From NCBI RefSeq assembly GCF_026151205.1, contig NC_087073.1, positions 2,252,501 through 2,316,500 on the forward strand: a stretch of 64,000 nt of DNA, written 5' to 3'. The stretch is from Bolinopsis microptera (taxonomy: Eukaryota; Ctenophora; Tentaculata; Lobata; Bolinopsidae). The position numbers and the translations under genes are program-made. Below are positions 1,501-64,000 of this stretch, in pieces; the stretch's first letter is position 1, and each line of letters begins with the position of its first letter. Under the pieces are notes generated by a model. The model searched no databases and was not told the origin of the DNA. It saw only the letters and a program-made list of their open reading frames with translations.

Positions 1501-1522
1501 CAACTTTTTAAGACTAATGTTA

Positions 1523-2107
1523 TCAAGAGTGTTGTACGGAAAATACGAGGCTCTGTTGTGTCTTATCCTCAGTGTCTCTGGTTGGATTTCCTGGGTTCTC
1601 AATAGACCTCTGTATTGCTTTCGGCTCGATTTCTTCTAGTTTGTCACCGTTGTTGTTGTGTCCGCATCTGGCAAGATCCTCCTTTAGTTCGCCCAGGTCC
1701 CCCACACATGGTGGGGTTGGAAACTACATATGTATCTGATCTCAAGTAGTTCCTAGCATCTGTTTCCTTTCTAAATAGCTTGTACCAGATCTGATTTTCT
1801 GAGTCCAAGCTCAAGGTAAGGTCTAATAAGTTAACCTTGATTCTATATATGGTTCTGCCAGTTTGATTTAGCCAGTTTGTTCAACAATTCGACAAACATT
1901 GTAAATTGTCCCCATCCACACTCCAAATATGTCGTCGATGAATCTCTCCCAAAAGTTTATCAGGGTCGCACTCTTTATCTTTTTGCTAACCTTTTTGAAG
2001 AGCAACCAATGCATAGTAACGTCTGACACTTGTCTGGAGATACAGTTTCCAGTAGTAGGCATGAGGCAGGGAAAATTAGTGTGTGACTGATTTAAGCAGT
2101 TGGTCAC
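1523..2107 (-). pseudogene. Penelope-like reverse transcriptase relic
   Basis: On the minus strand a broken frame reads FWERFIDDIFGVWMG, close to the RYIDDIF-W-G catalytic block of Penelope-like reverse transcriptases. About 30 residues on, in a shifted frame, comes LLDLTLSLDSENQIWYKLF, matching the FLD-T-----I-YK-Y motif that follows in that family. Further on LVFSVQHS sits where a conserved L-V---H-- block is expected. Frameshifts and stops separate the parts, so it is dead. No GIY-YIG endonuclease was recognised. The family call rests on remembered motif order. A DIRS or other RT relic is less likely. Confidence 0.55.
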
Positions 2108-2399
2108 CAGAGTTCAGTTCGAGTACTAATTTTAAGGAAATTAGTGACGTTTTAATGTTAATAAAATTGATTGAATTCACGTATTTTTGTTGACGTTAAC
2201 AAGGCTCATACCTCCCCCTCCCGTCAGCAACCGTCAGCATTTCCAAACACCCTTTTCCCTCGGCTGCTGACGTCATACATGAACGCTCGCTTATGTTAGC
2301 TATACATTTTGTAACAGCAACATTTACATTGTATTATGTATTATATTGTATTATGTAATTACATTAAATGACGGGTGGGCGACAATTTACCCCCCGACA

Positions 2400-2716
2400 A
2401 TATAATTTAATACAATTAACCCTGACCCTGACCCTGATCCAGGACCCTGACCCTGACCCAGGACCCTGACCCTAACCCTAGGCCTTACCCTGACCACTGA
2501 CTCTGACCCTGACCCTAACCCGATCAATTGACCCAGTGTAATTACATGGGGGTCAATTGTCGTACTAAGTCCTAGATTTCGCGACAATTGACCCTAGTGT
2601 AATTACATAGGTAGGGGGTCAATTGTCGTACTAAACCCTAGATTTCGCGACAATTGACCCCAGTGTAATTACATAGGGGGTCAATCGTCGGGGGGTCAAT
2701 TCACAATTGTCGCGGT
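2400..2716. repeat. Degenerate telomere-like CCCTGA/CCCTAA tract and ~70-bp palindromic tandem units
   Basis: Bases 2,412-2,520 are imperfect repeats of ACCCTG/ACCCTA, resembling an old interstitial TTAGGG-type tract. From 2,533 to 2,716 a ~70-bp unit repeats about 2.5 times; it contains GACAATTGACC and its complement GGTCAATTGTC, so units can fold back. No gene. Confidence 0.6.
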
Positions 2717-2829
2717 ACCTAAATGACATGTACTTTTTCAGGATCAAGTCGAAGTCAGGCAGCTGCAGCGACGAGCCCCTTTCTTTCGGATAGTGAAGTG
2801 TAATGTTTACTGGGAGTGGGATTCTTAGC

Positions 2830-2945
2830 CACAGCCGTATTTCATGCCATGTTTAAGTAGCCGAAGAATCCAGGTCCAAGGAATCCAAGGTTGCAACTAT
2901 GCAGGTCGTGGGTTCAATTCCCGCTCTCGGCACATCTCACCCCGA
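2830..2945 (+). repeat. Possible tRNA-derived SINE head
   Basis: GTGGGTTCAATTCCCGC forms a T-arm-like hairpin with a good RNA polymerase III B box. TCTCGGC after it can pair with GCCGAAGA about 70 bases upstream as an acceptor stem. The anticodon arm does not fold well, so this is more likely an old SINE than a functional tRNA. Confidence 0.35.
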
Positions 2946-4440
2946 CTTTTCATGAAAACGTACTACCTGCCTTGATTCAATTAGCTGAACGAGAATAGAC
3001 CATGCTGACCCACCAGATGAAATGAAGTGTAATGTTAATGTTTAATGTAGCTGTTTAACGTTGAAAAATTGTTAGTTTGTAATTGTTTTTGAGAGAAGCA
3101 AAATAATTAATCTGAGAAGTGTTTCCAGTTTTATAAAGCTCAGGCATGGGCACCGTATTGTTTATTTAGTTATATTTTATACAATATCTTTGACCTTTGT
3201 CGCATTAAGTTGTAGTACTACTACTGGTACTAGTAGCGGGGTAGTACTAGTAAATACTGAATACTGTGTTTCGTTTATTCTATAAGTATATAAATATTGC
3301 ATTGTGTATCTTTGTCGCATAGTATAAGTTGATAAGTAGCGAGGTAGTTAATACTGTTTCGTGATGTATTTTGATCGTGCAATCTTAATTATTCGTATTA
3401 TTATACCGCAGTTCCTGTATTTTATCGTCTAAAAGTGAACAATACCAAATTAAAATAAACAAGAGGCATTTATAGCCTTCGATAAGTATAAATAATCGCA
3501 CACGATGTACGTGCACCCGGGGTTAAATACGACGCAATTGTCAGCACTGCGCGCGCACACACGTACCATCTTATGTGTGCTGATCTGTATGTGCCTATCC
3601 TACTTGTGAAACAAGCGCGTCACGCAGTACGCGTAGGCACATGGCTATGTGAAGTCCTCACTCTTAAAGACTACGGCAGCAAGACCAAAAAACGTAAAGT
3701 ATCCCCAGGTAATAGTCAATATGATATTTGAAGCATTTAACTCATGATATCTGCTCGTGCTAGAAGTTAGAACCTGTTACCCCACATTAAGACTACATCA
3801 AACAAGGCTCGACATAAAGCTGGCTGAGTTTCTAGCGGTCTTCGGACCAGATCATAATCACCAGTCATTATGCTCACACCTTACATGTTACAAGTCGATG
3901 GTTTGTAGTCTACTTAAATATTTTGTACGTTATACTATGATCTATGGCACCCCTCTGATTTCACCTCTACTGTGTCAAAATTTATGACATGCGTCAGCGT
4001 GCTAAGGAGACCCCATATTTACTTGCAAGCGCGTCACGTAGTATACAAGCTTTTAGAAACGATCATTACTTGACTTCTGAGGGTCAGTTTCCTATGGAGT
4101 CTTAATCATTCGAGAGATAATCCTTCATAGTCATACTACAGTTCAGTCTAAAAACAAAGTCCGAAAGAAGTTAAATTTCGTCGATAATTACGACAAAAAT
4201 TTGGATTATTGGACTTGAAGCCTTCGGCTGCTTCCCCTGAATTCCGGGATCAGTCCGCCTGACTACATTTTATTGCGTCAGTTAGAGGAGAAAGAAAGCT
4301 TTTATAAAATCTATAGTTTTCCGCTCCTACTAAATCGCTCGCCCAAATTTTAAGAAAATCCGAATCACCCCCCATGACGTAGGGTAAAAATTCTTCCCTG
4401 GAGAGTTATGGGCAAAAAACCGTTTTGGTCACGTGACAGG
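2946..4440. other. No gene seen
   Basis: AT-rich sequence with scattered GCGCGC and GCGTCACG(C/T)AGTA motifs (about 3,610 and 4,030). No ORF with family resemblance and no structured repeat beyond these. Confidence 0.4.
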
Positions 4441-5885: not shown

Positions 5886-35531
<29,646 letters not shown>

Positions 35532-40330: not shown

Positions 40331-40670
40331 AGGACCAAATAACAACTCTATAAATTAATCTATTTTTGCTATATCTAAATTAAGAGGTTAACTGCATTTA
40401 AAAACGTTTAGATTTCGTTTTTACTGACAATTATGAACCTAAAATTTAGAGTTAACATTTGCTGACCGAAAATAACAAAATATTTTGGAGTGTAATGAAA
40501 TCTTAACCTAAAATTTATTTACCTCAATGTTGTATAGTTAATTTTTTAAGAATCGGCTAACCTCATTTATCAAAAAAAGTTAAGCAGCTATAAATATGTG
40601 AATGGCAGCAAAATTTGTGTCATCAAAGAATGAATTTATTTAAAGTATCATTTTTTTGACCGTTTACCCC

Positions 40671-40733
<63 letters not shown>
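40671..40733. repeat. Poly-C run of about 60 bases
   Basis: CCCCACC followed by an unbroken C homopolymer. The length may be unreliable. Potential i-motif/quadruplex. Confidence 0.85.
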
Positions 40734-47645: not shown

Positions 47646-47828
47646 TCAGTATAGTACTGTCACAAAACATCGCCTAATTCTAATTAGCGATGTTTTGACT
47701 GACTCCTGAACAGCAGATTTGTGTTTCTCAAGCCAACCAATGTTTCCCTTGATACTCTGAAGAGCTGATTCGTAAGCTGCTCTGCCAGGTCCCAGACTTT
47801 CCAGTTGACCGGAGAAGAACTCTGTTAT
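47646..47828 (-). CDS. M1 aminopeptidase last exon
   Basis: ITEFFSGQLESLGPGRAAYE, then ALQSIKGNIGWLEKHK, the family's final A-E-----NI-W---- helix. The last residues and stop region include a near-perfect hairpin (47,664-47,696). Confidence 0.85.
   Translation of the reverse strand: MTEFFSGQLESLGPGRAAYESALQSIKGNIGWLEKHKSAVQESVKTSLIRIRRCFVTVLY
47664..47696. repeat. Hairpin over the aminopeptidase C-terminus
   Basis: AAAACATCGCCTAATT and AATTAGCGATGTTTT pair with one bulged base, about 15 bp of stem and a 2-base loop, 16 bases from the stop codon. It could be a termination or 3'-end structure, or a small foldback insertion that altered the C-terminal residues. Confidence 0.7.
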
Positions 47829-48068
47829 CTGAAATATAACCTCAGTTAGATTAACACTATCACACTTAGTTCTCCTGATTTATAAATAGCTTCTAATATT
47901 TGACCGGCCTCATGGGACTATGGCTTGCTGAAATAGTAACATCAACTAATCGAAAACTGTACTGAGGAATCGTAAATTATTACCAAAAATGAAAAAACTT
48001 TCCTCCGATTGTGGAGATTTAAAACAAATAACACTGGCAGGGAAGCCCTCCAGGTGGGAAAAACTAAC

Positions 48069-48143
48069 CTCGTATGTTTGTTGGTCAGCGGAAATCAGAA
48101 CAGAACTCAGCGATGGTAAAGCATTCAACAGCAAATAGGGCAT
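48069..48143 (-). CDS. M1 aminopeptidase exon
   Basis: 25 codons, MPYLLLNALPSLSSVLISAD then QQTYE, fitting the L-------F-T--E helix. Phase 0. Confidence 0.7.
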
Positions 48144-48242
48144 CTGTGAATCTGAAAACAGGCAGTCAACGGTTATTGTTTTACCGTTTTTAAATTTCTC
48201 AATGGATGATATTTTGTCGAGACCACGAATAATTGAGATCAA

Positions 48243-48364
48243 TTATTCGAGGTCTCGAAAAAAATCATTCATTATTCTGAATTTAAAAATAAAATTAAAG
48301 GAGGACAAAGAATATAAGCAGAAACAGAGGAAGCCAGAACCTTTAATTAAAAACATTAAAAAAC
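48243..48364. other. Intron between aminopeptidase exons
   Basis: A palindrome GAGACC...GGTCTC flanks AATTGAGATCAATTATT near 48,222-48,258. Otherwise plain. Confidence 0.4.
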
Positions 48365-48515
48365 ATACTCTTCGGTGAATTCCCGTTGCCAGTTTAGCAC
48401 CAAAAAATCCCAAGAAACCTCTCGTCCAAGCTTAGTTTGAGCGATACTCCGGCCCAGTATTGTAGAGGGAGTCACTTCGACGCATAAGATAGGATCCAGG
48501 CAAAACTCAGAGAAA
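48365..48515 (-). CDS. M1 aminopeptidase exon: C-terminal helical domain
   Basis: LDPILCVEVTPSTILGRSIA, then SWDFLVLNWQREFTEEY, matching I--QD-------ia----G---W-F---NW. Donor TAT|GTTTTTT is unusual but is the only one that keeps phase with the next exon. Confidence 0.75.
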
Positions 48516-48565
48516 CTGAAGTGTAAATAAGAGCTGAGTAGTTGGGAAGTAAAAGTGGTCAGCGT

Positions 48566-48666
48566 ACCTAGTGGTACACTGTGGTACACTGTGGTACACT
48601 GTGGTACACTGTGGTACACTGTGGTACTAGTGGTACACTGTGGTACCTAGTGGTACACTGTGGTAC
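48566..48666. repeat. 10-bp tandem repeat GTGGTACACT
   Basis: About ten copies with minor variants (GTGGTACTA, GTGGTACCTA) in an aminopeptidase intron. Confidence 0.9.
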
Positions 48667-48777
48667 TATGAGATATTCATATAAGGAAAATTTTGATAAT
48701 TTTAAAAGCAGAGACCAACAACCTGAATTAATATTCGGATACGTAATCTTGATAATAAATACTTTGTAGAAACTTAC

Positions 48778-49055
48778 TTTTTGAGCGTATCCTTGTCCTG
48801 AATCAGACCTAAAGCTTGATAAATTGTTTGTTGTTCACTGGCTGAGTCAGAATTCTGGAATTTTTTCCACAAGAAGTTCCAGTTATCTATAACATCTCGT
48901 AATTTACCAGACATAACCGTGTTCAGCATAGTGATCTTAAACTCGGATTTAGGCTCAATGCCGTTTTTATAGGCATCGAATTTAGCTTTTGCAACATTGA
49001 CACACTCCTCGACTTCGTAAGGCATGCTAACTGGACAGCAAACAATACTTTCAGC
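48778..49055 (-). CDS. M1 aminopeptidase exon: C-terminal helical domain
   Basis: VEECVNVAKAKFDAYKNG, then WNFLWKKFQNSDSASEQQTI and YQALGLIQD, matching the C---A---F--W------I-P---- and W--------S--E---L---L helical repeats. The acceptor CAG|GCTGAAAG is chosen by phase. Confidence 0.8.
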
Positions 49056-50117
49056 CTGGTCAATAAATAATGTTTCAGATAATTTGAAAAGCTTCCAATA
49101 TTTTCCATGGTGGGTAGTCGGCGACACGTGGGGGGTCGGCGGCGCGCAGATGAAACACAGGTGCAATATAAATATGTAATTAATAATGTTCAATTTAAGC
49201 ATATTTGGTGTCTTGAGTTCAATTTGTATGCGTATCGTTTACTTTTTGCTTTCTATGTCTGAGGTTCGTCAAAATAAGGCTTAAATAAAAATGATAGGTA
49301 AGGTTTAAACACTCAAACATGTCTTGAAACCGTGTTGCAGCATCATAGGTAAGTCTTTTTCAGCTGTGGCGTTAGTTTGAAGGTAGTCGGCCCCGAATTT
49401 CATCCAAACAGTGTCTTAAAGGTACCCTGGTACTTGCTCTGCAATGCACATATTTGGAATGTTAGATTTACGCCCATGCACACAACCAGGCTTTCTCTCC
49501 GAAGTCAAGAGAAGACTATTGAATTCTGGGTGAAGAACAAAACTGGTCGGATGCGATAATTTCCCCCCATCCCCAACATTCCCCCACCCAAACTTCAAAA
49601 TCAAAAATAACAAATAACAAAAAATCACCCAACACTCTCCTCGCAGAGTAAACCCCTCATATGACATGTCGTGTCTGCTAATTATTCCTACTATCTGCCC
49701 CTGTACCTCTACCTCACACCTATTTTAACTCCACTTCTGACATTACTCACACCTCCCCACGCCCACCAAATCCAACTCTATACCCTAATCCAAATATGTA
49801 TTAACCCTCTGCCGTAGTGACACTGCTCCTAGCGAGCAGCATGGTCAAGGGCGCGTACGCTCATAATCTCTGTCAATGCAATTATACTATATTATATGCA
49901 TCTTAGTAGTCCCCTGAGAATGGGTGAGTACTGACTAGTATAAACGCAGGAATGTGTCGTACAGTAAGCCCTGAACTTCTGGTATTTTTAGAGCCTGAGT
50001 GGGAGACAAATCAGTAAAATCAGTGTTAAGAATCTAATGCTGAGTTATTAAAGCTGACTGATAATTCGACTGAATAAAAATTAGAAACGTTCGAATAAAA
50101 GTTAAAGAAAAAGAAAC
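49056..50117. other. Aminopeptidase intron; expected exon(s) not found
   Basis: M1 enzymes have about 95 more residues here (the helices after the NYD motif). A short candidate behind CTCCCACTCAG at ~50,000 (ALKIPEVQGLLYDTF) has no good donor and I do not call it. The rest is AT-rich with C-rich patches. Confidence 0.4.
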
Positions 50118-50334
50118 CTTGTAGTTTTCTTCATCACTGATATGTTTCGTGAGCCTCTCGTTAAGATCAAAACTGTAGTTAACGATGTAGTAACCCGCGC
50201 TATTCATGTTCAGCCTGATGAAGCTATCAAGATCGGAGAAATCAAACTCTATAAGGACCGTGTCATGAGGTTTCAGCCACGCGAACTCGATATCGGCTCC
50301 TGTCATGTATTCGATGGGCACATACCATTGGTAC
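50118..50334 (-). CDS. M1 aminopeptidase exon: start of ERAP1-like domain
   Basis: YQWYVPIEYMTGADIEF and LNMNSAGYYIVNYSFDLNER, matching W-VP-----------W and N-N--G-YRVNYD of the family. 217 bp, phase 2 in and 0 out. Confidence 0.88.
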
Positions 50335-50501
50335 CTGCTCACATTCAGTGATGTTATTGTTAAACTAAAAACATTGTATTACTATTAGAAGTCCAAGCGA
50401 CTGGATTTCGTGTAATAACGACACTGTTGTTCGTGGCCGTTTTTATAAAATCCTAAAAATGATTTTTATGAGTCCCTTGTTAAAACAACAGCGGAAATTA
50501 C

Positions 50502-50641
50502 CCGTAAGGAGATTCTTTGTCCCCAGACACATCAGATCCTGAAATAAGGAACCGTCTTTGAGAGATGGCAATATGGTTGTCATCATAACGTCTTACTTCC
50601 AAAACAGGAAAGTTCATTTGCAGAGTCCAAGTATTCATCAC
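50502..50641 (-). CDS. M1 aminopeptidase split exon, 3' half
   Basis: MNTWTLQMNFPVLEVRRYDD ... SQRRFLISG ... SPYG, the junction between the catalytic and C-terminal domains. It begins at the left LTR; 50,637-50,641 is the other ATCAC copy. Confidence 0.88.
50637..50641. repeat. Target-site duplication, left copy (ATCAC)
   Basis: ATCAC immediately before LTR TGTAAG, matched by ATCAC at 60,645-60,649 after CTTACA. Five bases is typical of Gypsy, BEL and Copia integrases. Confidence 0.9.
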
Positions 50642-51708
50642 TGTAAGAACCTCCGATGGTTCAGCATATCGGTGTGTATTCAGCATACCAGTATGTGTTC
50701 AGTTACCTGTGTGTAATGCCTCTTGGATATTAATTCTTTAGATTATCGGAGTTAATTGACTTCAGCCAACGATAGTTGGTGAACCCACGTCAGTGTCAGG
50801 ACCAAGATAAAAGTGACAACCAAGATAGCGTTTTGGAGCAATCACAAAGCTGAAGCGAGCGCAGTCAATCATAACTAATCAAGCTAAGTTAAGATAGCGC
50901 TCTAAGGAACCCCTCACGGTCGTTAAACGGAGTTAGTCAATCGAGAAGTAATCAAGATAACACAATTCTCATTAACGACCTCCTAACGAGGAGGATATAA
51001 ATATACGGCACAATACTTAGTTGGGGCTCTCTCTCTCTCTCCAGTCCTCACCAACCTGGGTTCTCTCCACAACGGACTCTCTTACGACAGGATGGAATAC
51101 TACTCTTGGAGGAGCACTGACGACATATCATCGTGAACAGCGGAGATCATCACATATCTAGAGTCCAACCCATCGGAACTCCTTTCCTGTAACTAACTCC
51201 TTTCCTATACTGAGGTGAGTACTCCTAGGACGGGCTAATAGGTTACGTGTTAAATATTCTATTGAAGACTATTGTATGTTTACTTCTAATTACATTGATG
51301 TCGGAAGTTCTATTCCGGCCCCCTTAAATAGGCGTATGTTACTAGTCTCTAAACGAAGTATGTGACTATTGAGTCACCAGCCAGGAAATATCCTGAGCTA
51401 TAATTGTGATTGAAATTACTAAGTTCCTTCCCGCCACTTGCGGGAATAATGCTCCCGAGTATCCGTGGTTGGGTACCACTATATTAGTGGGACGTTACGA
51501 ACTCGGGACCCTGGTGGACCTGAAGGAGGACATGATGTAGGTAAGTCGAACTCGTTACTCCGGCTAGCCAGGCATAATCATGTTTCAAGAGTTGTAGGAG
51601 CGCTCTTGTGGAGCCTAAAATAAGCACTCCACCCTAGGTTTATCTAAGTACAGTTTGGTCCACCATTGTAGATTACGGTAGTCTTCCACCTGACCGCCGG
51701 GTCTTACA
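50642..51708 (+). repeat. Left LTR, 1,067 bp
   Basis: Compared by eye with the right LTR. The 3-base length difference is fully explained by one missing CT in (CT)n at ~51,030 and one C (CTAAACGAAG versus CTAAACCGAAG). No substitution was noticed. TATAAATA at 50,996-51,003 is a likely core promoter. Confidence 0.95.
50996..51003 (+). promoter_or_regulatory. TATA box in left LTR
   Basis: TATAAATA following GAGGAG; transcription would begin about 30 bp downstream, near the (CT)n tract. The same site in the right LTR is 59,929-59,936. Confidence 0.6.
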
Positions 51709-51710
51709 AA

Positions 51711-51744
51711 TTGGAGCCTGATACGGGACCCAACTGCGGGTCCC
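51711..51744 (+). promoter_or_regulatory. Putative primer-binding site and adjacent hairpin
   Basis: TGGAGCCTGATACGGGACC starts at 51,712, 3 bases after the LTR, the usual place for a tRNA-complementary site beginning TGG; I cannot assign the tRNA. GGGACCC-AACTGC-GGGTCCC (51,725-51,744) is a perfect 7-bp hairpin overlapping its end and could serve packaging or dimerisation. Confidence 0.4.
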
Positions 51745-51811
51745 CGGGCAGTATTGTACCCTGTGTGGAAGCAGGAAATGAACGAGTAATACTATTAATA
51801 ACACGCTCTAA

Positions 51812-52099
51812 TTGAGGCCTGATATGTGCACTCACAGTACTTCAATTGAAATACGAGCCTACATATTATACGTAACACGTCCTTATCAGTACAAACACGA
51901 GTATATAGCTCGCATAAGTAAAAGCGTACGTGATCTAAAAGATTTGTTAACAAATTTCTCCCGCATATTATACTGGAGTGACGCTGACGTGGATCTAGAC
52001 GAGAAACACAGTACGAGTGATGACGGAAACAACGACTCCAGAGGACACTTCTTGGAAACACTACACACTATGGAATCCACGGCCAGGATGAAAATCTAG
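51812..52099 (+). CDS. Small ORF in element leader, unknown
   Basis: 95 codons; the later part is hydrophilic (SKSVRDLKDLLTNFSRI, then DADVDLDEKHSTSDDGNN). No family recognised. It may be chance or a leader-encoded exon. Low confidence. Confidence 0.2.
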   Translation: MRPDMCTHSTSIEIRAYILYVTRPYQYKHEYIARISKSVRDLKDLLTNFSRILYWSDADVDLDEKHSTSDDGNNDSRGHFLETLHTMESTARMKI

Positions 52100-52908
52100 G
52101 AAAAACAGGTCTGTGTATTCAACATTATTGGCTATCCACAGTAATATCGATCCCCGTTAATGGATCATTAACTCAGGGTCTAGCCACCCCCTTCTTTTAT
52201 ATCGGGTAATCTTTCGTAAAATATTGACATTGTACCAAGAAGTTTCAAATACACTGAGATACTGTAGTGTAGGCACTTTGCCACAGCAATTTTTAAATCT
52301 AAAAACGGGAGTGTTAAGTTACAAGTTTGATCGTTAATCGCCAGTCACAGCGAGATGACGATAGTGAGGTTTAAGAGTTAATATTTGACCAACCTTCGGA
52401 GAAGGGAGGCGATGCGTCCAGTATATTATTAACTAGGATCACTTCACATTCACCGTAGCGTTACCTTGGTTACCTTCATAATCACTATCACCCAACCAAA
52501 ATCCACATTCATTGACTGTAACCGGGGTAACGAAAATTGCGTTTAAGGAAATTAAACAGAGCCCGGACATTAAACTGGTGTCATGCCAAACCTTGATAAA
52601 GTTCGCGTGACCGTTCAGCGCTCTGCGCTACGAGCTATATCATGATTAACAAATTCCACTCCATCACCGTTTATGTGTGGAGACCGAAAATTGGCATCAC
52701 GTGACACTGGTCAATTGATGGGATCTAAACACTTCGTCACTCACGGGTCATACCAAGGGGTGCTAACCCTAATGGTTGTCTAACTAACGTGTCATGATTA
52801 TTTTTTATATGCGAAAAAAAAAAGAATTGTGCGGAATATCATTTAGTGTTATTAGGCACGTTCTAAGTGTTGGGAACACTGTGAAAAGTTACGAGTGGTA
52901 ACTTGTTA
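52100..52908. other. Element interior, no feature
   Basis: Non-coding AT-rich sequence between the leader ORF and the first minisatellite. Confidence 0.4.
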
Positions 52909-53240
52909 AATGAGCCAATAGTGACTCATCATGGTCGAGCAGTGACTCGTTGAAATGAGCCAATAGTGACTCATCATGGTCGAGCAGTGACTCGTTGAAA
53001 TGAGCCAATAGTGACTCATCATGGTCGAGCAGTGACTCGTTGAAATGAGCCAATAGTGACTCATCATGGTCGAGCAGTGACTCGTTGAAATTTACAATAG
53101 TGACTCATCACGGTCGAGCAGTGCCTCGTTAAAAAGAGCCCACAGTGACTCATCACGGTCGAGCAATAGCTCGTTGAAAGGAGTCAATAATGAACCAACA
53201 CGGTCGAGTGGTGGCTCGTTAATATAAGCCAGCAGTGGCC
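52909..53240. repeat. 45-bp minisatellite inside the LTR element
   Basis: AATGAGCCAATAGTGACTCA + TCATGGTCGAGCAGTGACTCGTTGA, about seven copies, the first four near identical and the last three decayed. Each unit has CGAG-CAGTGA-CTCG. Confidence 0.92.
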
Positions 53241-55030
53241 GGCAAATGGTTCATAACATAGCTTAAAACACCTTCCGATCAGAGTAGCAGTGTTCCTCCG
53301 TCAGATTAAAGTGCAGGGGAAATGTGATGTTGTGTTGTTGTGTGGTAAAGTGGAACTCGTAACCACTCCGTTTAGAAACCGGGGCCACCGGGGCCAATTA
53401 CCGCGGTTTTTGAGGTAGAAAATTCCAAATTTACAATATTGACTTTTTCCCCCCTACTTCTTCACATATATCATTTTATTCCTGTACTCCTTCTGGATCC
53501 CGACTTTCAGTGAACTGCTACTTTCAGTTACCTATCTACCTGAAGGTAAGAGTTGTACGTTAGAATCGGCCGTAAACAAGCACTTACGTTAATAGACCTC
53601 TGATGGGCAATGGGAATCTAGTCCACTCAATCGGGGTAATGTATTGGTAAAGGTCTAACAGCACATATTCATACCACACAATTCCATACCGTAGAACCTA
53701 GGTTAATAGATGATTTAACATTATGGCATTAATAACATTATATTTACGAGGCTGAAATAAAAACACCAGTAGTAGTAGTTACCAGAAGTTGTGAAATGTT
53801 AGTTAACCATAATGTACACGCTGTAGTCAAATAGTTAACTGTCACAAATAGTGCAAATTAAGTAATCGGCCACATTCTACCTTTGATCCTACGTTACATG
53901 GAACACTTGTTTTAATTGGATGTGATCATCATCGGGAATCATCTACATAAGTACATAGGTGCAACAAGCAGTACACGCCATCTAGCCTCAGTGGGATTGC
54001 GGACCCACTATACTAGGAGACCTTGTGTGTCACCAGCGTGAACCTAAAAGCATATGGCGTTAACCGTATTACCACAGAGCCCTACAATTAACTAGAAGAG
54101 ATAAGACACTAAGACTTATTTTCGTAAACTTACCTCCGAGCACTGAAAAGCGTACTGACACGCAGTAATTCAAGTTAAGTAAGTTGACTCTATAGTGGCA
54201 ATATAATATTAAAATACGGCTGAAAACACCCATATATAACGTGATCGAATAACGTAATCGGACTATGGGCGCATAAAACATTTAACAGAGCTAAACAGAC
54301 TTAACACTGGTTAAGTTAATCAAACAACGGGTTTCAACATAATAGTCAATATAACTGACCCACTATAAATTAAGATAAAGGGCAGTCATTATTTTTGTTA
54401 TTTCAATTAGGCGCTTAATAGGGTGGATATCAGTCAACTAAATAGTTATTATCCACCATATACAGCAAAACCACTGAAATTTCCCTTATTTTGCCCTTTA
54501 TAAAATTACTATTACCGTATTGCCAATTAAAACGTCGTCTGGGGAAGGGAGCTGGAAGGTGCAACTGCTAACGATCATAATAAGAGTATATAAGGAGTGA
54601 ATATAGTTAATCATATGCGAACTAATAGGGCCATTAAGGACTAGTTGGAAGTACCTGGTAAGGACACGGCTGATTCAGTAAGTTATGTGTTGTAAAGCGA
54701 TAAAGGTATACTCACTGAACTCCTGGTTATTCAACCTTACGATCAGTGTTATCCTTATAACGCATTCCCGAACACACGTGCCGTTGCTTTAACAGGTGAC
54801 TCGCGAGTCTTAAACAAACCTAGGTAAGGACTAGCCACCGGCCCTATTAAATAAAATAAAAAGGTAAGTGAGTGTAGAGATCTCAAACGAAGTAGTTATT
54901 AACCTCTGCAGATGGTATATTCCTGCAGATGTTACGGCTGATATTGCCGATTCCGCCAACGTAAAATTATTGCATATGTAAAATATTGGGCGAAGAAGTA
55001 CTAGGTCTAGAAATAACTAGGGTACTTACA
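53241..55030. other. Element interior, no gene seen
   Basis: 1.8 kb without protease/RT/RNase H motifs on either strand. AT-rich, short frames only. Confidence 0.45.
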
Positions 55031-55632
55031 AGATAAGCCATGTGAAAGGTCACATGTTATAACGGCATAAATAAGCCATGTGAAAGGTCACATGTTATAA
55101 CGGCATAAATGAGCCATGTGAAAGGTCACATGTTATAACGGCATAAATAAGCCATGTGAAAGGTCACATGTCATAACGGCATAAATAAGCCATGTGAAAT
55201 GTCACATGTTATAACGGCATAAATAAGCCATGTGAAAGGTCACATGTTATAACGGCATAAATAAGCCATGTGAAAGGTCACATGTTATAACGGCATAAAT
55301 GAGCCATGTGAAAGGTCACATGTTATAACGGCATAAATAAGCCATGTGAAAGGTCACATGTTATAACGGCATAAATAAGCCATGTGAAAGGTCACGTGTT
55401 ATAACGGCATAAATAAGCCATGTGAAAGGTCACATGTTATAACGGCATAAATAAGCCATGTGAAAGGTCACATGTTATAACGGCATAAATGAGCCATGTG
55501 AAAGGTCACATGTTATAACGGCATAAATAAGCCATGTGAAATGTCACATGATGTAAACGGCATAAGAAGCCATGTAAAAGGTCACATGATGTAAACGGCA
55601 TTAGAAGCCATGTGAAAGGTCACGTGTGGTAC
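55031..55632. repeat. 38-bp minisatellite inside the LTR element
   Basis: AAATAAGCCATGTGAAAGGT + CACATGTTATAACGGCAT, about 16 copies. Each has the palindrome CATGTGA-AAGG-TCACATG. The last two copies are diverged (ATGATGTAAACGGC). Confidence 0.95.
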
Positions 55633-56465
55633 CAAAGTAAGAAATCTAAACAAATAACAGGATGTAACAGTTGTTAAAAGGCCATGAGAGGGCTCACAGA
55701 TTGTCAGGTGTTATGTTAACAAATCACCACGTATCACATGTTAGATACAAGTGTTAGGAAGTATACATAACATCACAATGGCAGCTACTATGGAGTGTAC
55801 GGGTGGTTGCGTCGATTGTGCGGGTCTGGCTGCGTAGTTGGGAGCACCAAGGGATGCTGGAAATCAGCGCCCCCCTCTCCCTGTATTTCAGCGAACCAAT
55901 GGGTAAGCGGCAATTCTGCTCGCAGATTGTTGGGTACAGGATGAAGGTGCAAGTGTCCCTAAATGGATGCAATAATTCTCTTGAAAATCGGATCGGGGAT
56001 CCGTCGGCTTGATCTACTCCCAAGAGCAACTAGTGCCCAGCACCCGCCGCAGTCGATGCGATCACACGTGCCCTTAAATCATATACGGTGTATGTTAAGA
56101 TTATAAGAAGTGAGTTAAGAAACATAAAAATACCGTATACCTAAAAAGGCCCAGGCAAAAGCAGTTCATTCTATAAAAGTTCAAAGTAAGTTAATCTTAA
56201 GAATGATTAAGAGAGGCATGCATGCATGGAAGTGTGTCCCAGGTAAGAGTGGCCACTCGTTTAGGTAAGGTAACACAGGACAGGGAGTATAGGTACTATA
56301 TTGGACACACTCCATAAGCAGAAATTTCTATATTATTCAATTAAATACCCAACGTATGTAATGAACTGTTACAAATTACGACCACAATTATAAAATTAAT
56401 TAAATAACTAATGCCGGTGACATTAGAAGTGATAAGACCGAGAACGTCAGTATTGTACGTATTTT
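55633..56465. other. Element interior, no gene seen
   Basis: Short frames on both strands around 55,754-56,029 have no recognisable family. Confidence 0.4.
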
Positions 56466-57110
56466 CGACATATGGTAACCCGGTTACACATATGGTAACA
56501 CACCTGGTAACCCGGTTACACATATGGTAACACACCTGGTAACCCGGTTACACATATGGTAACACACCTGGTAACCCGGTTACACATATGGTAACACACC
56601 TGGTAACCCGGTTACACATATGGTAACACACCTGGTAACCCGGTTACACATATGGTAACACACCTGGTAACCCGGTTACACATATGGTAACACACCTGGT
56701 AACCCGGTTACACATATGGTAACACACCTGGTAACCCGGTTACACATACGGTAACACACCTGGTAACCCGGTTACACATATGGTAACACACCTGGTAACC
56801 CGGTTACACATATGGTAACACACCTGGTAACCCGGTTACATAAACGGTAATAAACCTGGTAACCTGGTTACATAAACGGTAATAAACCTGGTAACCTGGT
56901 TACACATACGGTAACAAACCTGGTAACCTGGTTACATATTCGGTAACAAACCTGGTAACCTGGTTACATAAACGGTAATAAATCTGGTAATCTGGGTACA
57001 TAAACGGTAATAAACCTGGTAACCTGGTTACATAAACGGTAATAAACCTGGTAACCTGGTTACATATTCGGTAACAAACCAGGTAACCTGGTTACACAAA
57101 TATGGTAAAC
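56466..57110. repeat. 32-bp minisatellite inside the LTR element
   Basis: GGTAACCCGGTTACACATAT + GGTAACACACCT, about 20 copies. The first 11-12 are near identical and later ones decay to CATAAACGGTAATAAACC variants. GTAACC(C)GGTTAC is a near-perfect palindrome. Confidence 0.95.
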
Positions 57111-57140
57111 AAGTAGATTGCTCATTCCCGCTCCCCCTTT

Positions 57141-57395
57141 TTGTTTCCCTTGTCGTCACATACATCATTGCAACGGCATTTCCCTCTAGCTAGCAATGCA
57201 AACGGCAATGCATTTATTTTCACGGTACTTGATTGCTTTACCAAATTCACCTGGGATTTTCCCTTGGTAAAGTCAATGCCGGGTAGTGCTATTCTAAAAA
57301 CTATTATAAAACATCGGAATACTGTATACTTGTATACAAACTCAGCAAGCTTCGTTTTTGCACGTGAGATATTTATTATATTATTTGAGAGATAA
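57141..57395 (+). pseudogene. Integrase-core-like fragment
   Basis: NGNAFIFTVLDCFTKFTWDF, then PLVKSMPGSAILKTI, resembles the GN-YILTV-D-FTKF-W--PL-----A--I segment of retroelement integrases (rve fold). Only about 45 residues match; the rest, including the distal catalytic residues, is absent. It lies 5' of gag, opposite to the gag-pol order, so it is either a rearranged remnant or a foreign insertion. Confidence 0.45.
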
Positions 57396-58006
57396 CGAAT
57401 ACTCCTGGCAAAGCATCAGATACACTTTGATTTAAAAACCAGTCAACGTTTATTTTTACCAGTACTGATGATCTGGATTTGCTCCATCGTGCAACAAAAG
57501 TGGAACTATGTAGTATTAATACTTATAATAATCATATTATTAGAAATTACCACCTTAACACAGTACCGTCTATAATTGATCTCAGTAGTATAGTGCAAAA
57601 TCACAATTCACTACCTTACAGCGTTCTGGAATAAGAGAAAAGCAACTTGCACCTTTGAAATTTTGAAGTTGACACTGTCGTTCTTTTGGAAATGGCAAAA
57701 GTCACACGTGAAATGCAACTGGCCGCATTCCGAATCAGCCTTATCTTAGATCAAGTTCCTTTAAAAAAAATGTGTGCGGACAATAAGTCGCAATTAATCC
57801 GCATTTCCAAACACTCATATATTATGTGCAAACTGTTATTCCTGGACGTGTGAGATCATAGTAACCAAAAATCCAGATCATTTCTTATACTCTCATATCA
57901 TACTCTTATACTACAATGTACTAGTAGAGTTTTGATTACAAAGTACAAAGTTATTGAAAAAAAAAATGCACTTAAATAACACCCCTACTAATCGGTACTT
58001 TGACAG
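57396..58006. other. Element leader before gag; candidate 3' splice site
   Basis: No coding signal. It ends with CCCCTACTAATCGGTACTTTGACAG, which has a branch-point-like TACTAAT 15 bases before an AG, three bases before the gag ATG. Confidence 0.45.
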
Positions 58007-58009
58007 AAA

Positions 58010-58747
58010 ATGGCCGATCCGCAAGGTAATAACGCCGCCGCAGCAGCAGCCGCTGCCGCCAGAATGCCACAGCGTCTCAACCCGATGTTCATAAGAGCAC
58101 CACCACAGTTCAAGAGCGGGATGGACCTGGATCTATACCTACAACGGTTCCGGGCGTACTCCAGATCCATTAACTGTCCGGCAAACGAACAAGCGGACCT
58201 TCTAATAAGCTTGCTGGAGGACAAGGTACTAGAAGGGATCTCGAGAACGGTTCAACTCGTGCAGAGCGATTTAGACGAACTCATCGCCCAAATCAGGCGT
58301 GCAGAAGGGCAAGGCCGTAACAGAGAACGGTACATAACGGAGTTACGCAACAGAAAAAGACTTCGGACAGAAGGTATCTGGGAATACCACCTCGAGTTAC
58401 ACAAACTGGCAAAGAAGGCTTATCCAAACAATGATGCTATGAGAAACGGGTCTCTCAGAGAATCATTTATCGCCAACATCAACGACTCCTATTTAGCATC
58501 GCGGCTAAGGGAACTACAAGAGCTCGAAATGGAGCAGCTGTTGGATGCAGCGATCACCTTACACGGATGCCAAACGGCATCAATAAAGCCAGTCAACGTG
58601 GTAACGTATCAGGAGGACAACGGGAGTTTTGAACGGGAAAGAGATCAGATCTGGCAGCGGTTAGACGATTTATCTCTTCGGATGGAGCAATTGGAAGTTA
58701 ACCAAATCATTTATAACGAGCCGGGAGCCACATCTCCTTGGTGGTAA
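58010..58747 (+). CDS. Gag-like capsid protein of the LTR element, 245 aa
   Basis: MADPQGNN followed by an alanine run and APPQFKSGMDLDLYLQRFRA, which matches the P-F--G-D---(F/W)L-RF--Y start of the Ty3/Gypsy-type gag capsid domain. Alpha-helical stretches with many charged residues continue to ~210. A coiled-coil-like end has DQIWQRLDDLSLRMEQLEVN. No CCHC zinc knuckle is seen. It would form the particle shell. The same strand as the LTRs supports element ownership. It is a single intact frame, consistent with recent activity and with selection for gag in a non-autonomous element. Could also be from a domesticated-type gag family, but the LTR context argues against it. Confidence 0.7.
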   Translation: MADPQGNNAAAAAAAAARMPQRLNPMFIRAPPQFKSGMDLDLYLQRFRAYSRSINCPANEQADLLISLLEDKVLEGISRTVQLVQSDLDELIAQIRRAEGQGRNRERYITELRNRKRLRTEGIWEYHLELHKLAKKAYPNNDAMRNGSLRESFIANINDSYLASRLRELQELEMEQLLDAAITLHGCQTASIKPVNVVTYQEDNGSFERERDQIWQRLDDLSLRMEQLEVNQIIYNEPGATSPWW

Positions 58748-59574
58748 CGACAAAAGCTACAAGTTGGAAACGTGACCAAGAGGCTTCGTAGCACCAGATC
58801 AACGACAACCCTACCGGAACATCTACCCGACACCTTCTTCACAGCTACCTTCGAAACACCCCCACACCCACCTGTCTAAGTATTACCTGTCACAGTAAAT
58901 TCGGTATCAACTGATGACATCTTTTATAGGCCTCATTTTTAGGCCCCATTTTTAAGTTAGTAAAACTATCATTAACGGAAATACTAACTATATATGCACT
59001 AAGCTACGACCATAGTAAAATGATGAATCCTATAAAAACTTAGCACTAAGTCCCTTCACTTCTGAAGGAACACAACACTTTCTCCAAGCTGAATCACTAA
59101 CTACCCCCTTTTTCAGAACGCGGCTATTGATGACGAGAACGGAACACATCAACAAACCAGAGCCAGAGAACAACTCTCAACCCTATACCTCCATCGGGAC
59201 TACAAATATATCCCCACCAAAGGAACTGGACAATTGCAGTAGAACAATAACGTTAAATTATTTATCCCTGAACTAAAGAATGCAATAGGACCAGAGAGTT
59301 AAATTATTTAGCCAATGACCATAATCACCTGCAGTAGGGTAACTGACGTTACCCTAGCCTAGTTATGTCCAAGTTCAACGGAGCGATACCTTATAGTATC
59401 ATTGAACAAATCACTAGACCTTTTGTTTAGATGTGTTAAATAGCCCCTAGTTCGTGTAGGAAAACCCACACTCCTTACCCTTGGACTCTAGGAAAAGCCG
59501 GACTCACAGCCGAGGTTCTCACCACTGGGATGCCTCAGTCTTGACGCGGACGTCAAAGTTAAAAAGAAGAAAGC
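58748..59574 (+). other. Region between gag and right LTR, ends in purine tract
   Basis: No ORF. AAAAAGAAGAAAGC immediately before the right LTR fits a polypurine tract for plus-strand priming. Confidence 0.5.
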
Positions 59575-60644
59575 TGTAAGAACCTCCGATGGTTCAGCAT
59601 ATCGGTGTGTATTCAGCATACCAGTATGTGTTCAGTTACCTGTGTGTAATGCCTCTTGGATATTAATTCTTTAGATTATCGGAGTTAATTGACTTCAGCC
59701 AACGATAGTTGGTGAACCCACGTCAGTGTCAGGACCAAGATAAAAGTGACAACCAAGATAGCGTTTTGGAGCAATCACAAAGCTGAAGCGAGCGCAGTCA
59801 ATCATAACTAATCAAGCTAAGTTAAGATAGCGCTCTAAGGAACCCCTCACGGTCGTTAAACGGAGTTAGTCAATCGAGAAGTAATCAAGATAACACAATT
59901 CTCATTAACGACCTCCTAACGAGGAGGATATAAATATACGGCACAATACTTAGTTGGGGCTCTCTCTCTCTCTCTCCAGTCCTCACCAACCTGGGTTCTC
60001 TCCACAACGGACTCTCTTACGACAGGATGGAATACTACTCTTGGAGGAGCACTGACGACATATCATCGTGAACAGCGGAGATCATCACATATCTAGAGTC
60101 CAACCCATCGGAACTCCTTTCCTGTAACTAACTCCTTTCCTATACTGAGGTGAGTACTCCTAGGACGGGCTAATAGGTTACGTGTTAAATATTCTATTGA
60201 AGACTATTGTATGTTTACTTCTAATTACATTGATGTCGGAAGTTCTATTCCGGCCCCCTTAAATAGGCGTATGTTACTAGTCTCTAAACCGAAGTATGTG
60301 ACTATTGAGTCACCAGCCAGGAAATATCCTGAGCTATAATTGTGATTGAAATTACTAAGTTCCTTCCCGCCACTTGCGGGAATAATGCTCCCGAGTATCC
60401 GTGGTTGGGTACCACTATATTAGTGGGACGTTACGAACTCGGGACCCTGGTGGACCTGAAGGAGGACATGATGTAGGTAAGTCGAACTCGTTACTCCGGC
60501 TAGCCAGGCATAATCATGTTTCAAGAGTTGTAGGAGCGCTCTTGTGGAGCCTAAAATAAGCACTCCACCCTAGGTTTATCTAAGTACAGTTTGGTCCACC
60601 ATTGTAGATTACGGTAGTCTTCCACCTGACCGCCGGGTCTTACA
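59575..60644 (+). repeat. Right LTR, 1,070 bp
   Basis: Near-identical partner of the left LTR. Contains TATAAATA at 59,929-59,936 and the same GAG|GTGAGT and GTAG|GTAAGT donor-like sites. Confidence 0.95.
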
Positions 60645-60649
60645 ATCAC
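60645..60649. repeat. Target-site duplication, right copy (ATCAC)
   Basis: Matches 50,637-50,641. It lies within the interrupted aminopeptidase exon. Confidence 0.9.
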
Positions 60650-60700
60650 CTCAACTATATCTACACGAGTTTCAGATGTATCCTTCTTAGCTCCGTATAT
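60645..60700 (-). CDS. M1 aminopeptidase split exon, 5' half
   Basis: IYGAKKDTSETRVDIVEV ends directly at the right LTR. The GTGAT at 60,645-60,649 (ATCAC on plus) is one copy of the target duplication. Removing the element and one ATCAC copy gives VEVMNTWTLQMNFPVLEV, the normal V---W--Q-G-P---V block. Confidence 0.88.
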
Positions 60701-60836
60701 CTGTTGTGAAAAATGAGCAATTAATGAAAGTATCATAAGGTGTGAACACGACTATCAGACTATTCACTTTAAAAGACGGAACACCAGTTGTGAAGTGATA
60801 TCGGTCACAGTTCATTATCTTGTCACGTGATATTAC

Positions 60837-60983
60837 CTTGTCTAACTGCTCGTAAAGATCAGTCTGTTCCGCGTTACCGTACTCATACTGTTTCACGTAA
60901 CTCCTGATAGCATTCTCAAAGTTCTCAGTTGTCGATTCAGTACCATCCATGAACATTTTAGCCTGCACTAGCAACGCCGAGCC
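60837..60983 (-). CDS. M1 aminopeptidase exon
   Basis: GSALLVQAKMFMDGTESTTE, then YVKQYEYGNAEQTDLYEQLD, matching G-SV--ML---------F---L--Y---H-Y-NA---DLW. Confidence 0.9.
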
Positions 60984-61126
60984 CTGTGAAAGTTCAGTTT
61001 TATTCAAAACTCGGTGGTGGGTGTGACAAAAGAAATTTAAAACTTATGTCTGGATTATATTTCTGGAGAAATAAGAAAACAAATCTATTTACACATAATT
61101 CATTTTGCACCTTGTCCACTTTGTAC

Positions 61127-61261
61127 CTTAGAGTAGGAGATAGAGTCGAACTGAGCAGTGATATCGTCAGGCTTAGAAACTTCGATTGAAGCGGGTCGGG
61201 AACTCATGTAGGAGTCTATGGCGAATGCTCGAGATTTGTCGGAAAAAGTCTGGAAGTCAAG
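61127..61261 (-). CDS. M1 aminopeptidase exon: SYSKG region
   Basis: FQTFSDKSRAFAIDSYMSSR ... PDDITAQFDSISYSK, matching ...IEVPV--P-EI-E-FD-ISY-K. 45 codons. Confidence 0.9.
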
Positions 61262-61455
61262 CTGAAATAGTTCACATAGTTCAACAGCATGGTACTTTTT
61301 ATCTTATTTCTAATTGTAGTTTCAGTTTAATTTTGCTAAGAAATAAAGCAGTCCTTTTTAAATCCCAGCAAGGATGTTCTATTAGTATTAAATTTTGACG
61401 ATAAATATGTCCAGCTAATTTTGCAAAATTAATATAAAACCACGAGGAAACTCAC

Positions 61456-61724
61456 GTAGTTCCACTGAGGTTCAGATTTGACAGTTCCAATCCACTCGAC
61501 ATAAGAAGCGAACCCCTCGTTTAGCCACAGGTCATTCCACCACTTCATGGTGACCAGGTTTCCAAACCACTGGTGAGCCAGCTCGTGAGCCACCACAGTG
61601 TTAACTCTGGCTTTGTTGTTGTATGTGTCTTTCTTGGGGTCCCAGAGCAGGGCTGTCTCTCTGTACAGGATCAACCCCCAGTTCTCCATAGCTCCCGCAC
61701 TGAAGTCAGGTACCGCTACTGAAT
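61456..61724 (-). CDS. M1 aminopeptidase exon: GAMEN and zinc site
   Basis: [19 protein letters not shown] carries the substrate N-terminus-binding GAMEN motif. HELAH (two zinc His and the catalytic Glu) and WLNEGFA (third zinc ligand Glu) follow at the usual 18-residue spacing. All catalytic residues are intact. Confidence 0.95.
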
Positions 61725-61896
61725 CTGATGGGAAAGTTACCATGACAATCACAACGGGTTATCTACTTGACTTTAAACTTCATTCCTCACTGTCACAATA
61801 TTTCGCAAAATTCCGGGCAACATGATGGCCATTAGCCTCAGGCACGAAACCAATAACTCTTTTGTTGGAAAACTCAAAATGTCAAAGGTCACGTAC

Positions 61897-62023
61897 CAAT
61901 CTTCGGAAGGGGGAAGTCTGTCCCGTAAAACGTTTCGTACTCATCAATAATCTTTGCTGTGATTTTGGCGGAGTATAAATCTGCTCCTGCATCAACAGGT
62001 CCTTTTCTACCACAAGTTCTTAC
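61897..62023 (-). CDS. M1 aminopeptidase exon: entry to catalytic domain
   Basis: VRTCGRKGPVDAGADLYSAK, then FYGTDFPLPKI, matching the Y---FPLPK motif that precedes GAMEN. Confidence 0.88.
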
Positions 62024-62251
62024 CTGATGATATTACAAAAATCTGAGAGAAAATCACTGAAATACCAACTAAAAAGTCGATTGACTATATTAGTATTTAA
62101 TAGCGAGAGGGTTATCACGTGGCGGATATTCTGGGACTGAAGAAAAGTCACCTAATATAAATAAATATTTATCTAGTCTATTCTATCATTGATACTGATG
62201 AATTAAAATTCGCCTTAATATCCACTATAAGTTATTTTGACAGTGCCCTAC

Positions 62252-62534
62252 CTTGACTCCTTTAGTACTTTCAATGATCGGTTCAGTGCACTTAAAGTCT
62301 GCTACAACAAAAGCCAGCAAGTAAGTTGACATTTTGACGCTCTTCTGGAAAACAAACTTGTTCCATGTATCGTCCACAGCAGTATTGCTCATCTCTGGCA
62401 TGTTCCACAGGACTAGCGGGTAGGTATTCTCCGCTGTTATCTCCATGGAGAAGGTGGCTTTAAAAGAGGGCTCATCAAAACATGGCATCACTTTCCTGGC
62501 TGCTAGTGGCTCCATTTGAGAAGCTAGTACTTTC
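62252..62534 (-). CDS. M1 aminopeptidase exon: FDEP motif
   Basis: LASQMEPLAARKVMPCFDEP, then SFKATFSMEI and MSTYLLAFVVADF, typical of the N-terminal beta-domain. 283 bp, phase 2 in and 0 out. Confidence 0.9.
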
Positions 62535-62672
62535 CTGGGAGACAAGCAGCTGAGTCCTGGTACCGTGGTCACGTGGTCTTACATGTCACGTGGCTTTCAG
62601 TGTAAAGTCACATCAAACTAACATCTTTGTAATATAATTACAAAGATTTTGGAGATGTAATATAAGTCTTAC

Positions 62673-62766
62673 TTGTCAAGACCATCTTCCTTGTAGCTAC
62701 TGATGTAAATCCCGTCCAGTCCTCGAACCAAGCGAGACTCCCATTCGAAGTAGATCTTATATTTAC
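62673..62766 (-). CDS. M1 aminopeptidase exon: N-terminal domain
   Basis: KYKIYFEWESRLVRGLDGIY, then ISSYKEDGLDK, matching the ...DLDGFYRSSY strand of M1 peptidases. Enters in phase 1, so a 5' exon exists upstream. Confidence 0.82.
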
Positions 62767-64000
62767 CTGCATAGTAAACTGATACAGTAACTGAACTTTT
62801 AAATGTCTGAACACTTAATTTACCCAGCCCTTTGCCAACGTGTTCAGGTAAGAGTGTTACAAACCGCGATAACGTTCAGTATAGGTTTTTAAAGTGTGTC
62901 TCGTGAGTGTCAAGAAGCAATTCTATTAAAATATCCTGTAGACCGTCACCATGTGAACAGTAGACGAAAAAGAGAAGTTTTTACTTTCTTATTGTCCTCT
63001 GCAGCAAGTCTGAGGTTTAACTCGCTGAGAGCGACGATGAAGATGATAGCAGTTACATCGCCAAAACAATGTATTGAGTTACAGAAAATGAATAGCAGCC
63101 GGTTTACACTTTACAGAATTGCACATGATATATACATGACACAGGGGCTCCGTCACCAAGCAGACGATCGAGCAGACGAAACAGCTGACAGGGAAAATAC
63201 AAGAAGTGATTCCGAACGGGTGTAAGAACTATAAAATGGTATAGCTCTCGATGTACGAGTGTGCACGTGTGCGCGGCTCCGTTGTGGTAATAAATAACCA
63301 GCTGATATATAATGATATCCCGCCAAAAATTGAAACAGCTAGTACTGTGTCTTCTAGAATGTTCGCTTGGATGTTATGACAGCTTAAGACAGATATTTAC
63401 TAATCCACAGTTCAAATCTTTGACGATGAAATTGTAAATGTATAGGTATTATAATAGTTGAAATTTATAGATGTTTAGCTACCGAGCTGGCCGTGGTTAC
63501 GTGATGTTGAGAAATTTGTTGATTTCTGCATTTTCGAAACGTTCTTTTTTCGAAAAGGAACGCAAAGCCGTTTCCTGTCAGTCCGACTAACAAACTGAAG
63601 GGTGTTCCCACAATCCGGTCCGAGGTCCGGTTAACTTAAGCAGCTGTGAGCTGTTTAAGTGATAGCGAGAGGCAGATAGATGTAAAACTCTGCAGCTGCA
63701 GAACGAGAAGTGTCCTGCCTACTTATTCCTCAAACTAGCTCTTTCCTAGTTTAAACCGGAGGCGCCATATAGAGAATTTCCTTGGATAGCTGTCACGTGA
63801 CAGTCACGAGATATCGATTGAGCGCGTTTACTGGTTGAATATATAGCGCGTGATATTGAGCTATTATGCAGAGCCATTACGGACCCTATAAGGCGTAATT
63901 AAGAGCTGCAGCTAGCTCGGTCTCTATCACTTTCACTAGCTGCATCTAGCACGTGATATTTGCACAGCTAATTACACGCCTTATACGGTATAATCAACAG
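62767..64000. other. Aminopeptidase 5' intron or upstream region, no gene called
   Basis: No N-terminal M1 exon (short tail, membrane anchor, first beta-strands) was recognised. A 109-codon plus-strand frame at 62,896-63,225 is basic and has no family resemblance. 63,500-64,000 has several short palindromes (CAGCTGCAG, AGCTGTGAGCT, GTCACGTGAC). Confidence 0.35.

Follow-up and report, generated by a model that had tools for sequence, protein, structure and literature searches.

Large retrotransposon derivatives (LARDs) are long, non-autonomous long terminal repeat (LTR) elements with a large non-coding interior. Gag-only elements are known from plants as TR-GAGs (terminal-repeat retrotransposons with a GAG domain); one in Arabidopsis is reported to have been observed transposing (PMC8704663). 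Here we compare with these systems an LTR element in a stretch of 64,000 nucleotides of the ctenophore Bolinopsis microptera (contig NC_087073.1, here C2, positions 2,252,501 to 2,316,500; hereafter the window). The element occupies positions 50642-60644 of the window, 10,003 bp in all, and lies antisense within a coding exon of an M1 aminopeptidase gene. We conclude with good confidence that it is a recent null insertion, made by a gag-only, pol-less element into one unit of a multi-copy M1 locus, and that it has broken the reading frame of that unit.

Insertion into an M1 aminopeptidase exon

The element has the features by which LTR retrotransposons are recognised: long direct repeats bounded by TG...CA, a short target-site duplication (TSD), a tRNA primer site and a polypurine tract. 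Places where a tRNA 3' end pairs with the primer site were located in the genome, and one of them is a tRNA-Lys according to ARAGORN. The features of the element and of its host gene, in window coordinates, are as follows.

47686..62875, minus strand: extent of the identifiable exons of the M1 aminopeptidase gene that the element interrupts (outermost exons undefined)
61459..61722, minus strand: M1 catalytic exon
60645..60703, minus strand: split M1 exon, 5' part (QIYGAKKDTSETRVDIVEV)
50502..50636, minus strand: split M1 exon, 3' part (MNTWTLQMNFPV...KESPYG)
50637..50641, no strand: TSD ATCAC, left copy
50642..51708, plus strand: 5' LTR, 1,067 bp, TGTAAGA...TCTTACA
51712..51729, plus strand: primer-binding site TGGAGCCTGATACGGGAC, complement of the 3' 18 nucleotides (with CCA) of tRNA-Lys(UUU)
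52901..53231, no strand: 45-bp minisatellite, 7.4 copies
55033..55627, no strand: 38-bp minisatellite, 15.7 copies
56473..57108, no strand: 32-bp minisatellite, 19.8 copies
57201..57389, plus strand: integrase-core remnant (sub-threshold rve match, expectation value (E) 0.086)
58010..58747, plus strand: open Gag-like open reading frame (ORF), 245 residues, adjoining the 3' LTR
59561..59573, plus strand: polypurine tract AAAAAGAAGAAAG
59575..60644, plus strand: 3' LTR, 1,070 bp
60645..60649, no strand: TSD ATCAC, right copy

A first-pass annotation of this DNA had proposed that a near-new LTR retrotransposon splits an M1 coding exon, and the present analysis agrees. ATCAC stands on both sides of the element, and M1 domains are matched on both sides as well (Peptidase_M1_N, 1.3e-22; Peptidase_M1, 7.2e-43; ERAP1_C, 4.9e-10). 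Once the element and one copy of ATCAC are removed, the host exon is open across the empty site (...KKDTSETRVDIVEV/MNTWTLQMNFPVLEVRR...), just as had been read by eye. The catalytic motifs said to be intact are so: GAMEN, HELAH (HEXXH) and, downstream, WLNEGFA are all present, and among solved structures those of aminopeptidase N come closest to the catalytic exon (E 7.3e-43). The interval 50502..60700, under which the insertion had been entered, corresponds approximately to the limits of the exon but not to those of the element.

The two LTRs show no substitutions over 1,067 aligned sites, and their only differences are one CT unit and one C, the same two that had been reported. This absence of substitutions limits LTR divergence to at most 0.28% (95% upper bound). 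With LTR divergence this close to zero, the insertion is very recent.

We propose that a pol-less LTR retrotransposon coding only for a Gag-like protein integrated antisense into an exon of an M1 gene of aminopeptidase N type, and that a gag-pol relative would have supplied the enzymes of reverse transcription and integration in trans. When the broken unit, which we call A, is translated into the element, VEV is followed by 31 element-coded residues and then a stop; translation into the LTR would thus give a truncated peptidase. An unbroken neighbouring unit, or an unbroken second allele, would allow the loss to be tolerated.

The element family, its gag and its missing pol

The genome searched comprises 264.65 Mb in 232 contigs, the largest contig seen being of 26.2 Mb. 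A search with the LTR gave 41 matches from the best 40 of 50 candidates. Nine of these, at 94% identity or more over all or nearly all of the query, make up three full copies (the window copy on C2, and one each on C10 and C6) and three solo LTRs (C9, C7 and C1). All six insertions with both ends have perfect 5-bp TSDs; the matches L010/L038, L011 and L012, which show no full LTR with both ends visible, were not counted among the six. The full copies are 10,003, 10,539 and 11,608 bp long, with LTR-LTR substitutions of 0/1,067, 2/1,065 and 0/1,064 (the last being the C6 copy), and in all three AAAAAGAAGAAAG precedes the 3' LTR. Between copies, LTRs are 0.7-1.3% apart and interior parts up to 3.8%. 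The LTR ends TGTAAGA and TCTTACA (50642-50648 and 60638-60644) contain a GTAAG donor whichever strand is read; they also provide an acceptor if the TSD, taken in the host sense, starts with G.

The first-pass annotation had missed that the element lacks pol and that it is one of a small family of gag-only elements, in which a second member likewise interrupts a host exon. There is no ORF of pol length in the window, C10 or C6 copy, and hence no intact set of the reverse transcriptase, RNase H and integrase by which an autonomous element of Ty3 or BEL type is recognised. Stretches L031 and L033 cover portions of the C10 and C6 elements in which no complete ORF of at least 100 residues is present; in stretches L032 and L034, gag is the sole ORF above 90 residues within the element, except for a 100-residue run in C6. 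The integrase remnant has counterparts in both sister copies, and these contain stops.

The Gag-like ORF, by contrast with pol, is open in all three full copies, giving the single-gag structure of a TR-GAG. Judging from its ratio of nonsynonymous to synonymous substitution rates (dN/dS), which is 0.14-0.16 among these copies, gag is under purifying selection. Its dS (0.06-0.12) exceeds the LTR divergence between copies. A profile search of the PDB with gag found no capsid, the best match being a myotonin-protein kinase chain at E 0.0083. We also considered a domesticated gag gene and rejected it: the three near-identical full copies lie at separate sites, each with its own TSD.

We searched the genome with gag (51 matches listed from 129 candidates) and with integrase (150 scored of 394 candidates, so that the search is not exhaustive). 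The 11 long gag matches, covering at least 179 query residues, are 74-100% identical and stop-free, and none lies within 20 kb of an integrase match among the best 150 of 394 candidates. Outside its own family, the integrase remnant has a single match, at C5:5683149 (44% over residues 2-43, E 1.4e-4), inside an open frame of 1,373 residues. Gag pieces 60-65% identical to ours lie at C5:5686559-5687444, about 3.2 kb from that frame, which is downstream of gag. The relative at C5:5683041-5687444 differs from our family in having the long frame and the normal order of gag before integrase. Such an arrangement is consistent with enzyme supply in trans by a relative of this kind, which would be one possible source.

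Where the family inserts may be summarised briefly. Two of the six two-ended insertions are in host exons (C2 and C6), and one is in a multicopy ORF resembling that of a mobile element (C7, 26 matches). The other three span no open run longer than 40 residues, the C10 site being 84 bp from an open run of 258 residues. With two of six in host exons, the case for exon targeting by the family is weak. Four insertions of related elements were also tested, a fifth pair, on C4, being left out of this count. One, at C11:6.28 Mb, lies within a 177-residue run whose family is multi-copy (38 pieces matched when 40 candidates were scored), one in a run of 157 residues, one in a tandem repeat and one without a clear ORF. 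The 157-residue run looks, by eye, like a reverse transcriptase. The related element on C11 (C11:6282500-6291500) bears gag and has one LTR substitution in 1,086 sites; the family of its 177-residue run is without a Pfam match.

The second host exon is hit by the C6 copy (C6:20692500-20707500), which splits an open frame of 677 residues with ankyrin repeats. The portion preceding the element has a patatin match just under the Pfam cut-off (27.5 versus 27.7 bits). An intact relative lies 80 kb away in opposite orientation. The search covered 208 residues of the joined protein, all of them identical in the relative; a comparison of 333 codons shows 22 synonymous and 4 nonsynonymous changes between the pair. 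Thus, both young exon insertions are in genes with a close relative unbroken at the site, which is what one would expect if redundancy allows these insertions to survive, although two cases cannot serve as a test.

A broader proposal is that this ctenophore carries a whole lineage of gag-only LTR parasites which keep a selected capsid-like protein, borrow their enzymes in trans, are moving now and hit the exons of duplicated genes. We would put the chances of this proposal as even.

Neighbouring M1 copies and alternative explanations

The first-pass annotation had called for a genome search for an uninterrupted allele or paralogue. Two further M1 copies on C2, which we call A' and B, are both free of the element. 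A', at C2:2330765-2333815, lies about 18 kb from A and is 98% identical to it over about 3 kb. It is collinear with A across the empty site: positions 800-1506 of stretch L043 correspond to 49946-50642 of the window and 1501-3850 to 60645-62984, with a single, shared ATCAC. Over 3,031 bases of A in the close stretch there are 28 substitutions, or 0.9%. Seven exons, 473 codons in all, were compared, with exon 8 (frameshifted in A') and exon 9 omitted. The two units differ there by 13 synonymous and 5 nonsynonymous changes, with proportions per site of 0.042 (pS) and 0.0045 (pN); therefore, unit A was a constrained gene before the insertion. The synonymous divergence of 4.2% exceeds that of introns (8/1,306 bases, 49946-62984 versus L043). 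Five of the 28 substitutions, all transitions, are clustered within 31 bp at 60650-60680, adjoining the insertion site.

B lies directly beside the gene, at about C2:2317.6-2325.1 kb. Relative to A it has about 10% mismatches (transitions 126/374, tallied over five segments, two of which share 46 bases), an excess of insertions over deletions, and equal rates in exons and introns. From this profile, B looks like uncorrected continuous long read (CLR) sequence, and we reject B as an ordinary tandem paralogue because its divergence has the profile of read noise. The assembly was made from CLR reads of one F3 adult with wtdbg, TGS-GapCloser and pilon (PMC10232365). Of the 28 sites that distinguish A from A', B sides with A at 16, with A' at 8 and with neither of them at the other 4; B is therefore not simply A minus the element. 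It may be an allele of A that lacks the insertion, or else a third unit in tandem.

The first-pass annotation had offered three readings of the insertion: a segregating null allele, a redundant paralogue or an assembled minority haplotype. The redundant relative has been found, namely A'; the insertion may also segregate, if B is the empty allele rather than a third unit. A serious contender, whose chances we place a little short of even, is that the insertion is heterozygous and that B is the element-free allele of A, placed in a scaffold gap from an uncorrected read. The lack of the element in B, the upstream repeat that it shares with A, nearly equal spacing to the next unit, the read noise together with the gap closing of the assembly, and an LTR age near zero, which fits a segregating insertion, all favour this account. 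Against it stands the 16/8/4 split, by which B may be a third tandem unit.

We consider it unlikely that there is no tandem array at all and that the three copies represent haplotypes of a single locus joined by misassembly. B, and perhaps part of A', look like unpolished gap fill, and the difference of only 0.9% between A and A' is in keeping with this. However, A, B and A' are three distinct sequences, too many for a single diploid locus. Moreover, the assembly places B head-to-tail with A', and A' lacks the repeat found upstream of A and B.

Similarly doubtful is an old, fixed insertion whose LTR likeness has been kept by conversion or polishing. The LTRs of the three full copies are indeed closer to one another than are the interior parts. 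On the other hand, the TSD is intact, the frame of the split host exon is open with no further stops, and A shows no excess of nonsynonymous change relative to A'. Finally, removal of the element as an intron from a functional gene is very improbable and we reject such rescue on frame: the host-sense ends GATT/GTAAGA and TTCTTACAG/TGATG resemble a donor and an acceptor, but at 10 kb such an intron would dwarf the short ones of unit A, and splicing would leave five extra bases and an immediate TGA, so that the frame is lost.

The recent null insertion by a pol-less element is thus the reading that we retain, and several observations weigh against parts of it. Polishing with short reads can make LTRs more alike, so the insertion may be older than it seems. 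The window and C6 copies have the same primer site, but that of the C10 copy differs. The Gag label comes from position and homology: Retrotrans_gag is matched below threshold in one copy (E 0.091) and not in the window copy, and the fold model is poor, with a predicted local distance difference test (pLDDT) score of 48. Shorter gag pieces, 88-96% identical and not among the 11 long matches counted above, lie separately at C11:751741-752842 on the minus strand, about 11 kb from a same-strand integrase match at C11:740153, and C11:740153-752842 may be a closer gag-pol relative. As for A', its assembled sequence has two 1-bp insertions in exon 8, near a zone where identity falls to 89% and then 74%, and its 3' third is only 74% like A; its integrity as a whole gene is therefore unproven. 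The 74% part has balanced indels (94 insertion versus 98 deletion events; transitions 62/157), unlike the profile of B, so real divergence is possible there. Gene conversion could have produced the steps of 98, 89 and 74% in A', but partial polishing may explain them equally well.

Raw-read-like stretches that mimic diverged, frameshifted M1 paralogues are seen at C2:2317605-2325090 (clear) and 2326221-2330514 (less clear). Unpolished-looking gap fill in the Bolinopsis assembly can therefore pass for such paralogues. Other M1 copies were also seen. A fragment about 300 kb away (C2:2616890-2620458) stands beside a repeat that is also upstream of the broken gene. Two more pairs have equal match scores, C2:11376997 with 11513295 (136 kb apart) and C5:20031385 with 20182808 (151 kb apart), and are either fresh duplications or retained haplotypes.

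Elsewhere in the window, whose guanine plus cytosine content is 41.4%, there are a large TCC-rich tract (9293-12418), arrays of 63 copies of a 33-bp unit (14366-16449) and 76 copies of a 56-bp unit (19980-24246), and a 66-base poly-C run (40667-40732). An Rfam scan of the window gave no matches.

Relation to known elements

The insertion event is ordinary in kind; the unusual part is a ctenophore family that lacks pol and keeps gag. At this locus a ctenophore gene has been broken by a very young insertion whose position is precisely mapped, and it can be compared with a copy in which that site is unbroken. The family suggests recent movement in this animal of pol-less elements that retain a selected gag. 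In the titles and abstract starts of the papers listed on ctenophore LTR elements or gag-only elements, we found no comparable animal gag-only element; one group of the papers on gag-only elements, judged at the same depth, concerns plants.

As compared with other aminopeptidase N and M1 members, unit A has the same M1 domains and catalytic motifs but is cut by the element. The element itself resembles LARDs in length, non-autonomy and large non-coding interior, but differs from them in retaining a selected gag ORF. With plant TR-GAGs the family has in common two LTRs, a single gag-like ORF, the lack of pol and recent movement. It differs from them in residing in an animal genome, in its length of 10.0-11.6 kb, and in the place of its gag, which adjoins the 3' LTR and is preceded by a long non-coding leader that contains minisatellites and the integrase remnant. 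If our reading is true, the family would be an animal counterpart of the plant TR-GAGs with a reordered interior.

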